From positions 186,001 through 250,000 of the forward strand of contig NZ_JAATEN010000004.1 of assembly GCF_012034935.1 (NCBI RefSeq): a stretch of DNA of 64,000 nt. The letters are read 5' to 3'. A program made the position numbers and the translations under genes. Source of the stretch: Streptomyces zingiberis. Lineage in GTDB: Bacteria; Actinomycetota; Actinomycetes; Streptomycetales; Streptomycetaceae. The notes beneath the pieces were generated by a model. It ran no database searches. It was not told the origin of the DNA and saw only the letters and a program-made list of their open reading frames with translations. This document shows, in pieces, positions 11,847 through 30,281 of this stretch; positions within the stretch are counted from its first letter, which is position 1; every line of letters begins with the position of its first letter.

Positions 11847-13079
11847 CTACCGGTCCCTGACGGCCTGTTCACCGCTCGCCTTCGGCAGCCGTGCGTCACC
11901 CAGCTCTTGCTGCACGGCGACGGCAGCTTGGAGCTCCCCTGGTGTGACATCGTTGACGAAGGTCACATCACCGATCCCGACCGGCAGGGGCAGCCGCTGC
12001 AGGCCGTCCCGGTGGCGCACGGTGTCCTGGAGGGCGTTCACCAGCACCTCCGGGTCGAGTATCGGGTGCCAGCTCGGCAGCTCCAGCAGGGACATCACCG
12101 CGAAGATCCGGTCGCGCTCCGCTTCGGTGAGCAGGCCGCGGCGCCACGCGATGACGGTGGTGAGCGCCATGTCCACACAGACGGCTTCGCCGTGCAGGAG
12201 CTCGGGCAGAGCGCGCATCTCCACCGTGGGGCTGAAGGTGTGCCCGTAGTCGACGCAGCGCTCGAGTGTGGCCTCCCACAGATTGGGCTGCAATTCATCG
12301 AGCATTCCGTGGATCGCGGAGTGCAGCACCGACCGTGCGGCCCGGTCGCCCGCTGCCGATACTCCCTGGAACTTCTCGTCCAGCAGGGTGGGACCGTACT
12401 CCTCGAGGGAGCCGAAAAGCGCGCGGTCCTTGATCAGGGCGATCTTCAGGATCTCGGCGAGGCCGTTGCCGATGTGGCGCCGGTCCAGGGTGCCCAGGAA
12501 CTGGCGGTCCAGGAGCGTGAGGTCCGCGGGCGTGTAGGTGCCCAGCCGGTTCTTGTGGCCGTTGAAGTTCACGCCCGTCTTGACACCGACACCGGCGTCC
12601 ACCAGCCCGATCAGGGTGGTGGGAACCCTCACGAACGGGGCGCCCCGGCGGTACAGGCTCGCGGCCAGCCCGACGATGTCCATCAGCACGCCACCGCCGA
12701 TGACGATGAGCGGCTCCTTGCGGCGTGCCACGCCGAAGGTGTCGAGCTCGCTCACGATGCGTGTCGCCGTGTCCAGGTTCTTGAGCGTTTCGTTCGCTTC
12801 CACCACCATGATCGAGTAGTCGAAGCCGTGGAATTCGAAGTAGGACCGGATGCGATCCCCGTGCATTAATTCGACATTTCTGTCCACGACGATGAAGCGG
12901 CGCGCCCTGTCGCTGGTTCCCGCGCCCTGCTCCAGGAGGTCGGTGCACTCGGGCCGGAAGATTCCGTCCCGGAGCCGGACCTCATAACTGATCTGTTTCT
13001 GGGCGCGCACCAGCCATTCCTGTGAGTGGTCCTTGAAGTAGAGGCCCGAAGAGGTGTCGGTCAGGCTGTTACCGGTCAT
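11847..13079 (-). CDS. sedoheptulose 7-phosphate cyclase, 2-epi-5-epi-valiolone synthase type (ValA/AcbC family)
   Basis: A 410-residue member of the dehydroquinate-synthase superfamily. It has the NAD-binding GGGVLMD (128-134), then PTTLIGLVDAGVGVKTG with NFNGHKNRLG (about 153-180). DHQ synthase has DSS.GGKT at this point, so the sequence here is the cyclitol-cyclase signature. Zinc-ligand regions GLAEILK, LHGEAV and DYGHTFSP follow. It should convert sedoheptulose 7-phosphate to 2-epi-5-epi-valiolone, the committed step to valienamine-type aminocyclitols. Codon 71 is TTA (12869-12867). Its start overlaps the epimerase stop by 4 nt; it is the last gene of operon A. Confidence 0.93.
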   Translation of the reverse strand: MTGNSLTDTSSGLYFKDHSQEWLVRAQKQISYEVRLRDGIFRPECTDLLEQGAGTSDRARRFIVVDRNVELMHGDRIRSYFEFHGFDYSIMVVEANETLKNLDTATRIVSELDTFGVARRKEPLIVIGGGVLMDIVGLAASLYRRGAPFVRVPTTLIGLVDAGVGVKTGVNFNGHKNRLGTYTPADLTLLDRQFLGTLDRRHIGNGLAEILKIALIKDRALFGSLEEYGPTLLDEKFQGVSAAGDRAARSVLHSAIHGMLDELQPNLWEATLERCVDYGHTFSPTVEMRALPELLHGEAVCVDMALTTVIAWRRGLLTEAERDRIFAVMSLLELPSWHPILDPEVLVNALQDTVRHRDGLQRLPLPVGIGDVTFVNDVTPGELQAAVAVQQELGDARLPKASGEQAVRDR

Positions 13080-13885
13080 TCCCCGTTCTCCTTCTGTTCT
13101 GTCCTGCCGAGTGACGCTGTTCGTTGCCGCGCCCAGCGCAGATCGGCGAGCAACCGGGCGCGATCCCCGTCGCGGTAGTCGTTCTCCAGGACCGCGGCCC
13201 GGACCGGGACCCCGTGGTCGCGCAGCGCGCGGAGGGTGTCGTCGAGCCGGCCGGTACCGGTGCCCAGGGGTGGGCCGGCGCCGGTGGCCGGGGGGCCTTC
13301 CTTGAGGTGTATCTGGTCGGCCAGGACGTCGCTCAGCTCGGCGACGAGCACGTCACATGCCAGTCCGGCCGTGACCGGGTTGAACGTGTCGAGCAGGACG
13401 CGGAACGCCGGCGAGGCGACCCGTCGGACGAGCGTGCGCGCCTGCTCGCCGGTGAGTACGTTCTCACTCGCCACGAGGAGGCCCCGGGCCTCGGCTTCCG
13501 CGGCGGCCCAGGCCAGCACCTCGGCGGTGTGTTCCAGGGCGGCCGGTCCGTCGATGCCGCTGCGACGGAAGCTGGGCACGAACGCGAGCGGCACGGCGAG
13601 CGCGTGAGCGGTGTCCAGGAGGCGTTCCAGGACCGGGCGCGCCGCCGGTGACATCAAGCCGACATCGTTGAGGTGGTTCCCCCCGACCGCGAGCAGCCGC
13701 ACGCCGGTGCACTCCGCAGCCGCGCGTATCGCGTCGAGGCGGCCGGGCCCGTCGAGCCACTCGCCCCGCCCGGGGCCGCCGAGATCCAGTTGCAGGCCGT
13801 CGGCTCCGACGGTCCGGGCCAGGTGCAGCGCCTCGGCCCCGGAGACGGGGAGCCGCCATTCGGCCAGGCCCACCTGGCAGTTCAT
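13076..13885 (-). CDS. TIM-barrel sugar phosphate isomerase/epimerase, likely cyclitol epimerase
   Basis: A 269-residue protein from ATG 13885-13883, coupled by ATGA overlaps to both neighbours. It has the AP-endonuclease-2-like barrel pattern: ADGLQLDLGGPGRG, GVRLLAVGGNHLNDVG, LLVASENVLTG (metal-ligand Glu), FRVLLDTFNPV (Asp), DQIHLKEGPP (His) and VLENDY (Glu). These are the metal-binding positions of xylose-isomerase-like epimerases. In acarbose and validamycin pathways 2-epi-5-epi-valiolone (or its 7-phosphate) is epimerised at C-2. This is the only epimerase-type gene in the cluster and the best candidate for that step. Confidence 0.85.
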   Translation of the reverse strand: MNCQVGLAEWRLPVSGAEALHLARTVGADGLQLDLGGPGRGEWLDGPGRLDAIRAAAECTGVRLLAVGGNHLNDVGLMSPAARPVLERLLDTAHALAVPLAFVPSFRRSGIDGPAALEHTAEVLAWAAAEAEARGLLVASENVLTGEQARTLVRRVASPAFRVLLDTFNPVTAGLACDVLVAELSDVLADQIHLKEGPPATGAGPPLGTGTGRLDDTLRALRDHGVPVRAAVLENDYRDGDRARLLADLRWARQRTASLGRTEQKENGE

Positions 13886-28705: not shown

Positions 28706-29141
28706 ACGCCCTCTCCGTCGACGGTGGGTTTCACGGCGTCACCGGTTGCGGCCCACGCGCGCATGATGTTCGGGACGACAGTGGATGACCGGCCATCCGG
28801 GCTCCGTTCCCCGGACCGCGGCAGGCCTGAACGCTCTCCTATGGTGCTGCGGTGAGTGGTGGGTACGGAACCGGGCCCGGGTCACCTGTTAAGGGGACAT
28901 GACACCTTCCGCAACGGCTGTTTCAATGCCAACAGCCGCCCCGCTGTTCCCACTTCTCCGTGCCGGCCGGTCCGCGGTGCCGCCCGCGTCACCTTCGTCG
29001 CCCCCGGCCTCGGCACCGGCCCTCGGCCCGGCCCGGCGCCGTCCGCCCAGGGGGAGGGATCCCCGCCGGGGCGGCCCGGCCGGCGCGTGCGGCGTGCGAA
29101 GCGGGCCGTCATCGCGGCCTCGCGCGGCGGAAGGGGCTTCC
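28706..29141. other. divergent promoter region between the GT20 and deacetylase genes
   Basis: 436 bp carrying the promoters of operon C (reverse) and the NagA-type gene (forward). I see no confident -35/-10 pair and no DasR-like palindrome, the usual control site for aminosugar genes in Streptomyces. No coding sequence is supported. Confidence 0.4.
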
Positions 29142-30281
29142 ATGCGCACGCACGTCATCGGTGGCGGCCGGGTCGTGACCCCCGGCACGGTCCTCGACCC
29201 CGGCTGGGTCGTCGTGCGGAACGGCGTGATCGACACCGTCGGCGCCGCGCCCCCGGCGGCACCTGCGGAGCCGGTGACGGACCTCTCCGGCTGCTGGCTG
29301 GTGCCGGGCTACGTGGACCTGCACTGCCACGGCGGGGGCGGCGCGTCGTACACCGACGGGGAGACGGAACGTCTGGCGACCGCGGTCGCCGCACACCGCC
29401 GTCACGGCACGACCACGACTCTGGCCAGCCTGGTCTCCGGTCCCGTCCCGGAGCTGATCGAGCAGATCAGCCGGCTCGCCGAACTCGTGGACGACGGCTT
29501 GCTCGCGGGCATCCATCTGGAGGGCCCCTTCCTCTCCGCGGCCCGTTGCGGTGCACACGACGCGGCGGTGCTGCGCCCACCGGACCGCACCTCGGTGGCC
29601 CGGCTGCTCGACGCCGGACGGGGCAGCGTCCGCATGGTCACGGTGGCGCCGGAACTGGACGGCGGGATCACGGCGATTCGGCAGCTCACCGACGCGGGAG
29701 TGATCGCCGCCATCGGCCACACGGACGCGAACGAGGCGCAGATCCGCGCCGCCGTCGACGCGGGAGCCACGGTGGCGACGCACATGTTCAACCAGATGCG
29801 GCCGTTGCACCACCGGGATCCCGGGCCGATCGGCGCACTGCTGGATGACGGCCGTGTCGCCGTTGAGCTGATCTGCGATCTGGTGCTGGTGCACCCGACC
29901 ATGGTCCGGATAGCCGCCAGGTACGCCGGACCGGAACGCACCGTGCTCGTCACCGATGCGATGGCGGCCGCCGCCTTCGGCGATGGCAGGTTCACGCTCG
30001 GCACGCTGCCCGTCACCGTCCACCGCGGGCGGGCCACGGTGGACGGCAGCGGCGCGTTGGCCGCCTCCACCCTGACCATGGAGGCGGCGGTGCGGAACTT
30101 CGTTCGCGATTGCCGGATGAGCGTGCCGGCGGCGGTGGCCGCGGCATCGGAGCGTCCGGCGCAACTACTCGGGCAGTCGGGTCGAATAGGCGCGATTCGG
30201 GGCGGTGCCGTAGCGGACCTGATCGTGCTCGACGAGAACCTTCGCCTCACCCGCGTCATGCACCACGGCACGTGGATCTGA
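29142..30281 (+). CDS. nagA: N-acetylglucosamine-6-phosphate deacetylase (NagA-type amidohydrolase)
   Basis: 379 residues from ATG 29142 (GGAAGGGG about 6 nt upstream). It keeps the amidohydrolase landmarks: YVDLHCHGGGG (HxH metal pair), GIHLEGPFLS (metal Glu), IGHTDANE (His), ATHMFNQMRPLHHRDPG (His) and VTDAMAAAAFG (catalytic Asp). NagA hydrolyses GlcNAc-6-phosphate to glucosamine-6-phosphate. It is divergent from operon C. It could be ordinary aminosugar metabolism, but beside an aminocyclitol cluster lacking an aminotransferase it may supply the amino-sugar acceptor. Confidence 0.85.
   Translation: MRTHVIGGGRVVTPGTVLDPGWVVVRNGVIDTVGAAPPAAPAEPVTDLSGCWLVPGYVDLHCHGGGGASYTDGETERLATAVAAHRRHGTTTTLASLVSGPVPELIEQISRLAELVDDGLLAGIHLEGPFLSAARCGAHDAAVLRPPDRTSVARLLDAGRGSVRMVTVAPELDGGITAIRQLTDAGVIAAIGHTDANEAQIRAAVDAGATVATHMFNQMRPLHHRDPGPIGALLDDGRVAVELICDLVLVHPTMVRIAARYAGPERTVLVTDAMAAAAFGDGRFTLGTLPVTVHRGRATVDGSGALAASTLTMEAAVRNFVRDCRMSVPAAVAAASERPAQLLGQSGRIGAIRGGAVADLIVLDENLRLTRVMHHGTWI

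Follow-up and report, generated by a model that had tools for sequence, protein, structure and literature searches.

A C7-cyclitol gene cluster of Streptomyces zingiberis, most likely of the salbostatin type, with no transaminase found beside its GT20 enzyme

In salbostatin, valienamine is joined to 2-amino-1,5-anhydro-2-deoxyglucitol, and the gene cluster for this compound in Streptomyces albus ATCC 21838 has reportedly been described by Choi et al. in 2008. Published accounts name ATCC 21838 (the same strain as DSM 41398; sequence record CP010519) as the source of salbostatin, attribute to the compound a rare C-N bond and, in the title of a reference, call it a trehalase inhibitor; iPRESTO assigns the C7-cyclitol cluster of ATCC 21838 (NZ_CP010519.1) to salbostatin. 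For acarbose, two papers give a route to valienol 7-phosphate by way of AcbC, AcbM, AcbO, AcbL and AcbN. Here we describe a cluster of 16 genes at positions 11847-30281 of a 64,000-nucleotide stretch of the Streptomyces zingiberis genome (6.49 Mb); this stretch, contig C34 positions 186001-250000, is called the window throughout. Sequence comparison makes a valienol-type C7-cyclitol pseudo-oligosaccharide cluster a well supported reading, because a ValA-like cyclase, a five-gene front-end set and a VldE-like enzyme of glycosyltransferase (GT) family 20 that keeps the hydrogen-bonding guanine contacts occur together. The cluster is not a validamycin-type pathway, since no transaminase was found, unlike at 22 of 22 loci of the VldE clade, and it is most likely a salbostatin-type cluster, since two proteins of the corresponding cluster in S. 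physcomitrii share 95% identity with proteins named S. albus, and ATCC 21838 is the known source of salbostatin. The literature used comprises PMC12041759, PMC9200736, PMC3441724, PMC3288074, PMC7081202, PMC9946207, PMC10717218, PMC5247666, PMC8599487, PMC5133447, PMC4426668, PMC4602208, PMC10970339, PMC4319605 and PMC8234114.

Cyclase, front end and GT20 enzyme

The cyclase scores 438 bits against ValA (4p53), as compared with 279 against desmethyl-4-deoxygadusol synthase (DDGS; 5tpr) and 122 against the best dehydroquinate synthase, and it falls under the AroB cut-off. An earlier note, made from the letters of this DNA, had described a cyclase with the cyclitol signature and had proposed a phylogeny as the check. 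The description held up, and neither of the groupings that would have overturned the note, the cyclase with plain dehydroquinate synthases or the GT20 enzyme with true OtsA, was obtained. Residues D277 and H356, at the two fingerprint sites, match ValA, whereas DDGS has A and T there, and the tree places the cyclase in a five-row set with ValA (support 95/89), away from plain dehydroquinate synthases and far from the genome's own AroB-like copy on contig C70. DDGS lies outside this set, yet inside the same nine-row group at the next level. Two fingerprint sites separate 2-epi-5-epi-valiolone synthase (EEVS) from DDGS, according to the literature. A plain dehydroquinate synthase was rejected as the identity of the cyclase by the AroB cut-off, the scores and the tree.

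The front end is a single run of cyclase, epimerase, short-chain dehydrogenase/reductase (SDR), dehydrogenase and ROK kinase. The same five families also occur together on a plasmid of Agrobacterium vitis at 43-58% identity (epimerase 43%, SDR 1 58%, dehydrogenase 50%, ROK kinase 1 54%), in a 31-kb EEVS region that has no GT20 match and, in its incomplete gene table, no annotated transaminase. By analogy, these genes match the AcbC, AcbM, AcbO, AcbL and AcbN steps, and the step of each gene we infer from that match. The acarbose cluster is alike in its five front-end roles, which fall in one gene run here, and in its nucleotidyltransferase and phosphatase (AcbC, M, O, L, N, R and J). It differs in that a GT5-like enzyme, AcbS, performs assembly there, according to the literature, whereas a GT20 enzyme is predicted to do so here, and in that no dTDP-amino-deoxyhexose genes are present among the window open reading frames (ORFs) scanned. 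A SalM/AcbL-like enzyme is common to the salbostatin cluster and to that of the window, where it is called by Pfam family: one S. lincolnensis protein has been described as similar to both SalM of the salbostatin cluster and AcbL, which implies that an AcbL-like enzyme, as here, belongs to the salbostatin cluster.

Additional EEVS-like loci were encountered. S. cyaneochromogenes has a second EEVS-like gene (L042, 47-48% identical), about 2.7 Mb off, with a ROK kinase beside it that is 57% identical to ROK kinase 1, and plasmid EEVS loci (L061-L063) occur in S. clavuligerus, where a DegT aminotransferase is annotated, in Rhizobium rhizogenes and in A. vitis.

The GT20 enzyme scores 375 bits against VldE, 172.5 against the S. 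venezuelae OtsA 5lqd and 54 against E. coli OtsA, and reaches only 133 bits where the OtsA family cut-off requires 565. In two trees it stands with VldE and apart from OtsA (split 100/100), as the phylogeny proposed in the earlier note required of a pseudo-glycosyltransferase, and in the second tree the OtsA clade (100/100) holds the OtsA protein of S. zingiberis along with those of its relatives S. cyaneochromogenes and S. physcomitrii. Both trees carry long-branch warnings, above all for P0025; of the 52 search matches, length excluded P0044 from the alignment and P0014 from the tree, and the second tree also omits 13 close VldE-side rows. The enzyme had been said to lack the N-terminal loops of OtsA. 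That is better put as the absence of the OtsA motif SNRGP...GGLV, which is borne out, with VldE-like sequence standing there instead; Tyr is also missing at the Tyr76 site. An AlphaFold model (predicted local distance difference test, 92.7) returns ValL/VldE as the best match in a fold search and GDP-glucose OtsA as the next. An OtsA identity was rejected by the cut-off, scores, trees, residues and fold search alike. The S. venezuelae OtsA 5lqd does resemble the enzyme in its GT20 fold (template modelling score 0.80) and in its class of donor, a purine nucleotide, but the two are 30% identical and the Streptomyces OtsA rows, in the OtsA clade, keep both SNR and the Tyr76-site Tyr.

The guanine hydrogen-bond contacts of VldE (R321, N323, N361 and T366) are kept in the GT20 enzyme as R319, N321, N359 and T364. 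Three acceptor contacts are changed, with Arg12 of VldE replaced by P14, Asn325 by H323 and Gln96 by H95; Arg326, the other phosphate contact, is retained. Across the 13-row clade of this enzyme, N325 has become His in 13 of 13 rows and R12 is lost in all 11 with letters at that place, whereas the VldE-side rows keep Arg12 throughout and, with two exceptions, Asn325; one of the exceptions (P0030) likewise has His. These residues set the clade apart from VldE, a difference that is compatible with the same type of reaction.

Wider sampling at E <= 1e-60 found GT20 relatives in 4 of 392 genomes of the genus, 13 of 394 of the family and 1 of 394 of the class, in draws that overlap. Among the sampled genomes, only the genome itself and that of S. 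cyaneochromogenes (G049, with the same coordinates as L007) have members of this clade (81-100% identical), the others being 41-46% identical. Plasmid relatives came to one distant match, at 31%. The contigs of P0025 (GT20) and P0240 (TreT) are both 27,576 bases long, which suggests linkage there.

The loci of the VldE clade number 25 (L009-L033), and cyclases were recovered in 20 of them. At the two sites that serve as the EEVS fingerprint, all 20 have Asn and Ile, and in the tree they stand apart from both ValA and AroB; because of these residues and this separate grouping, they are likely another cyclase subtype, perhaps 2-epi-valiolone synthase.

Transaminases and the extra nagA

A class III aminotransferase gene lies directly behind the GT20 gene in 22 of 22 VldE-clade loci with downstream sequence, as against a transaminase in none of the three loci of the window's clade. 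Three of the 25 loci (L013, L025 and L028) are uncounted, the stretch ending at GT20, while L033 is counted although its aminotransferase match is short and broken; outside the 25, L038 also has an aminotransferase and L039 ends at GT20. A model built from 21 ValM-like enzymes, whose two positive controls (L018 and L032) belonged to its training sequences, returned nothing at E <= 10 in the window extended by 20 kb on either side (104 kb) or in the regions taken from S. cyaneochromogenes (57.8 kb) and S. physcomitrii (80 kb). On contig C34, DegT and class III aminotransferases have no match. Class I/II has three. The one closest to the cluster, at the left window edge (window -1913 to 171), is about 12 kb away from the cyclase and looks like a regulator of the GntR-MocR type that includes an aminotransferase-like domain; the others lie more than 50 kb from the cluster. 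Searches of the three regions with DegT and MocR queries returned only the MocR-type ORF itself. Genome-wide, at E <= 0.001, class III has nine places, the DegT type nine and class I/II twenty, some of them shared between families; none of the nine class III enzymes exceeds about 36% identity to ValM-like enzymes. In S. cyaneochromogenes the closest gene of class III is about 1 Mb off, and the S. physcomitrii contig has none. A hidden transaminase was rejected after the genome-wide searches of the DegT, class III and class I/II families, the ValM-like model and the DegT and MocR queries. The finding covers three kindred loci and stops short of the deeper clade members P0004-P0011, which include proteins of Micromonospora, Dactylosporangium and S. 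griseus.

The nagA gene closes the span drawn in the earlier note, which left it unnamed. Its product passes TIGR00221 (261.9 versus a cut-off of 225.65, for the ORF from 28899) and scores 319 bits against NagA 6fv3, aligned over residues 9-379 of 379. In all three genomes nagA is divergent from the GT20 gene and is the second nagA present, sharing 47-51% identity with the copies elsewhere; no nagA match occurs in the VldE-clade stretches, which extend at most 10 kb either side of GT20. The closest relatives of the cluster NagA (76-88%) include those of S. cyaneochromogenes and S. albus, with the next at 69% or below. The S. albus NagA (P0055) is 95.1% identical to the S. physcomitrii cluster protein and 85% to that of the window, and the S. 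albus TreT (P0175) is 95.6% and 88% identical, respectively. If a glucosamine-built acceptor brings its own nitrogen, this would account at once for the lack of a transaminase, the additional nagA and the changes at the acceptor site. An amino sugar as the amine source matches one of the three options that Tsunoda et al. give for other transaminase-less clusters.

In two Streptomyces genomes (L090 and L091), housekeeping otsA, otsB-like and nagA genes lie within about 7 kb of one another, a grouping that echoes the GT20, OtsB-like and nagA genes of the cluster.

Set against validamycin, the cluster is alike in its EEVS and GT20 enzyme, with the ValA and VldE scores given above, and in its GlgC-like nucleotidyltransferase. 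It differs in having no ValM-type transaminase match, in its changed acceptor residues and in the presence of nagA and a TreT-like GT4 gene. The epimerases differ as well, ValD being of the VOC type, whereas a TIM-barrel AP_endonuc_2 protein is the sole epimerase-like product among the window ORFs scanned.

Gene content and conservation

A Pfam scan of ORFs is the basis of the family calls (Table 1). Fifteen of the 16 genes are on the minus strand and only nagA is on the plus strand. The families listed in the earlier note are all present in the span, and the tightly overlapping operons it described are real, in that many minus-strand starts overlap the preceding stop and most minus-strand genes overlap or almost abut. 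Five genes contain TTA codons, eight in all, and the LuxR-type regulator has two of these. The GlgC-like nucleotidyltransferase scores 213.6 bits versus a GlgC cut-off of 424.9 and is 42-49% identical to its counterparts at VldE-clade loci. The TreT-like GT4 enzyme scores 168 bits against 6zj4 and 160 against TreT 2x6q; its family is common, and TreT was rejected as a marker of the cluster, 6060 relatives passing E <= 1e-60. That TreT might give self-protection from trehalase inhibition is an idea only.

Table 1. Genes of the C7-cyclitol cluster (window positions)
Gene or product	Position	Strand	Basis and remarks
ValA-like cyclase (EEVS type)	11847..13079	-	scores, residues, tree
TIM-barrel sugar-phosphate epimerase, predicted AcbO-like role	13076..13885	-	AP_endonuc_2; start ATG 13885 chosen
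SDR 1, predicted AcbN-like role	13882..14643	-	adh_short
Medium-chain (zinc-type) dehydrogenase, predicted AcbL-like role	14640..15737	-	ADH_N; 50% to A. vitis enzyme
ROK kinase 1, predicted C7-cyclitol 7-kinase (AcbM-like role)	15734..16768	-	ROK
Major facilitator superfamily (MFS) transporter 1	16799..17980	-	MFS_1; start picked by ribosome-binding site
SDR 2, candidate for shaping acceptor	17991..18758	-	adh_short_C2
TreT-like GT4 glycosyltransferase	18755..20041	-	TreT_GT1 domain; start 20041 as in P0173
Second GT4-like glycosyltransferase	20694..21968	-	Glycos_transf_1, weak
LuxR/NarL-type regulator	22043..22687	-	GerE; two TTA codons
ROK kinase 2, possible 1-kinase	22946..24040	-	ROK
GlgC-like nucleotidyltransferase, predicted GDP-valienol pyrophosphorylase	23994..25190	-	NTP_transferase
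OtsB-like HAD phosphatase	25187..26098	-	Trehalose_PPase; TIGR00685 71.0 versus cut-off 68.05 (passes)
MFS transporter 2	26095..27366	-	MFS_1; start uncertain; 38% to MFS transporter 1
GT20 pseudo-glycosyltransferase, own clade	27239..28705	-	scores, trees, fold
nagA, N-acetylglucosamine-6-phosphate deacetylase, genome's second copy	29142..30281	+	TIGR00221, NagA 6fv3

Fourteen of the 15 minus-strand genes, together with nagA, are common to S. zingiberis, S. cyaneochromogenes and S. physcomitrii (15 of 16 genes). SDR 2 is 84% and 86% identical in the two relatives, both GT4 enzymes are conserved, and in S. cyaneochromogenes the LuxR-GT4 pair lies behind the cyclase. ROK kinase 2 has no ortholog in the relatives' regions. 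Both relatives have, between epimerase and cyclase, a HAD sugar phosphatase/mutase-like gene (L047 and L049, 77% identical to each other) that is without a match in the window, whose epimerase and cyclase genes overlap. The window differs from these two relatives by one gene absent and one extra, ROK kinase 2. The word 'complete', which the earlier note applied to the cluster, lacks support in that form, given that the HAD gene has no match and that no transaminase was found, the latter a point that the note had overlooked. A 51% relative of the HAD gene lies near the EEVS gene of an R. rhizogenes plasmid. The single EEVS-like gene of S. physcomitrii stands beside the cluster genes, the other match in that genome being 28% identical and AroB-like.

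The flanks are mostly unshared, only NUDIX and HipA-like genes recurring, in S. physcomitrii. The NUDIX gene beside the cyclase (window 11007-11606) is 90% identical in S. physcomitrii, has a 50% match beside the L028 cyclase and none in the S. cyaneochromogenes stretch. About 7.5 kb beyond nagA come genes for a phosphoketolase and a 6-phosphogluconate dehydrogenase (window 37816-41853); this pair could touch the supply of sedoheptulose 7-phosphate, and neither gene has a match in the relatives' regions.

Proposed pathway and rival explanations

The gene content, family placement, conservation, missing transaminase and extra nagA observed here are the basis from which we infer the reactions, acceptor and product. 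We lean, if only slightly, towards a cluster that makes salbostatin or a close relative from predicted GDP-valienol and an amino-sugar acceptor, the amine coming from N-acetylglucosamine via the cluster NagA and not from a transaminase. In such a pathway, sedoheptulose 7-phosphate would be cyclised by the product of 11847-13079, phosphorylated by ROK kinase 1 (15734-16768) and epimerised (13076-13885); dehydration by 14640-15737 and reduction by 13882-14643 would then give valienol 7-phosphate. Conversion of this compound to valienol 1-phosphate, perhaps aided by the phosphatase, ROK kinase 2 or a housekeeping mutase, would lead to GDP-valienol by way of the nucleotidyltransferase (23994-25190). 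NagA would supply the amine from N-acetylglucosamine, the GT20 enzyme would join GDP-valienol to a 6-phosphate made from glucosamine, the OtsB-like phosphatase would strip the phosphate and the MFS proteins would export the product. The N-linked pseudo-oligosaccharide proposed in the earlier note is thereby upheld in its valienol-type C7-cyclitol part, on the evidence of the cyclase, front end and GT20 enzyme, while its N-link may arise through an amino-sugar acceptor, as in salbostatin. The two GT4 enzymes may add the extra glycosylation suggested there. More tentatively, the separate GT20 lineage might work without any transaminase partner and use a reshaped acceptor site to take a NagA-derived amino-sugar phosphate, as a second route to nitrogen-bridged sugar mimics.

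Several points weigh against the amino-sugar route to salbostatin. VldE Val363, a hydrophobic guanine contact, is Arg in the cluster GT20 enzyme; two GT4 enzymes are conserved although a pseudo-disaccharide needs none; and no enzyme for converting glucosamine to an anhydroglucitol was identified. The transaminase was not found in searches of the DegT, class III and class I/II families, class IV, class V and other pyridoxal phosphate families being unsearched, and the three loci where it is missing are too closely related (GT20 81-87% identical) to count as independent. All of the 13-row clade shares the altered acceptor site, but close relatives of the cluster NagA were met only for the top group of that clade, and the link of nagA to the cluster could be historical, given the proximity of housekeeping otsA, otsB-like and nagA genes. 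The salbostatin link itself runs via two S. albus-named proteins and a presumed strain identity, and not gene by gene. According to a 2025 paper, ValL homologues, in a clade that takes in SalC, are always accompanied by transaminases. This conflicts with a transaminase-less salbostatin route, unless the statement is too general or SalC falls outside the clade described here. For this GT20 clade, the three loci contradict the statement. The same paper sought transaminase-less ValL-type clusters as intermediates between trehalose synthases and pseudo-glycosyltransferases and reported none; we met no description of such clusters in the open-access literature.

The main rival, which we consider unlikely, is an oxygen-bridged (C-O) pseudo-disaccharide, for which the GT20 enzyme would link GDP-valienol to a hydroxyl group on either a hexose 6-phosphate or valienol 7-phosphate. 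No amine would be needed, in keeping with the failure to find a transaminase, and a GT20 enzyme accompanied by an OtsB-like phosphatase fits a product resembling trehalose 6-phosphate. ValL is reported to form the C-O-bonded 1,1'-bis-valienol 7-phosphate in vitro, and oxygen-bridged products to have been detected in culture supernatants. Against this reading, the oxygen-bridged product is a far weaker trehalase inhibitor, with a Ki of 39.3 uM versus 2.6 nM. The conserved extra nagA would go unexplained unless glucosamine 6-phosphate served as the hydroxyl acceptor, and the S. albus link points to C-N-bonded salbostatin instead. It is improbable that the product is an N-linked validoxylamine-type compound whose amine comes from a transaminase encoded elsewhere. 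Although the class III, DegT-type and class I/II places counted genome-wide offer candidates and a housekeeping enzyme is one of the options of Tsunoda et al. for transaminase-less clusters, the low identity of the nine class III enzymes to ValM-like enzymes, the want of a linked class III gene in three species where 22 of 22 VldE-clade loci have one adjacent, and the departure of the GT20 acceptor residues from VldE all speak against it. We regard as very improbable a GT20 enzyme that is a GDP-glucose trehalose-6-phosphate synthase, in a cluster that makes a free C7-cyclitol or a GT4-made glycoside like streptol glucoside. Such a reading would draw on the two conserved GT4 enzymes, on the stated preference of the S. 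venezuelae OtsA for GDP-glucose and on the occurrence of streptol and streptol glucoside from an EEVS-bearing symbiont, both as given in the literature. The OtsA proteins of three genomes are, however, already in the OtsA clade (100/100) with the cluster GT20 beside VldE, the SNR motif and the Tyr76-site Tyr are absent from the latter, and a dedicated GlgC-like enzyme is in the same operon.

The three related clusters, with a ValL-type enzyme of an acceptor-changed GT20 clade and no transaminase found, are of the sort that was sought but reported absent in 2025. They make it possible to test where salbostatin-type trehalase inhibitors obtain their bridge nitrogen, and they may hold a natural enzyme set that couples GDP-valienol to acceptors other than validamine 7-phosphate.

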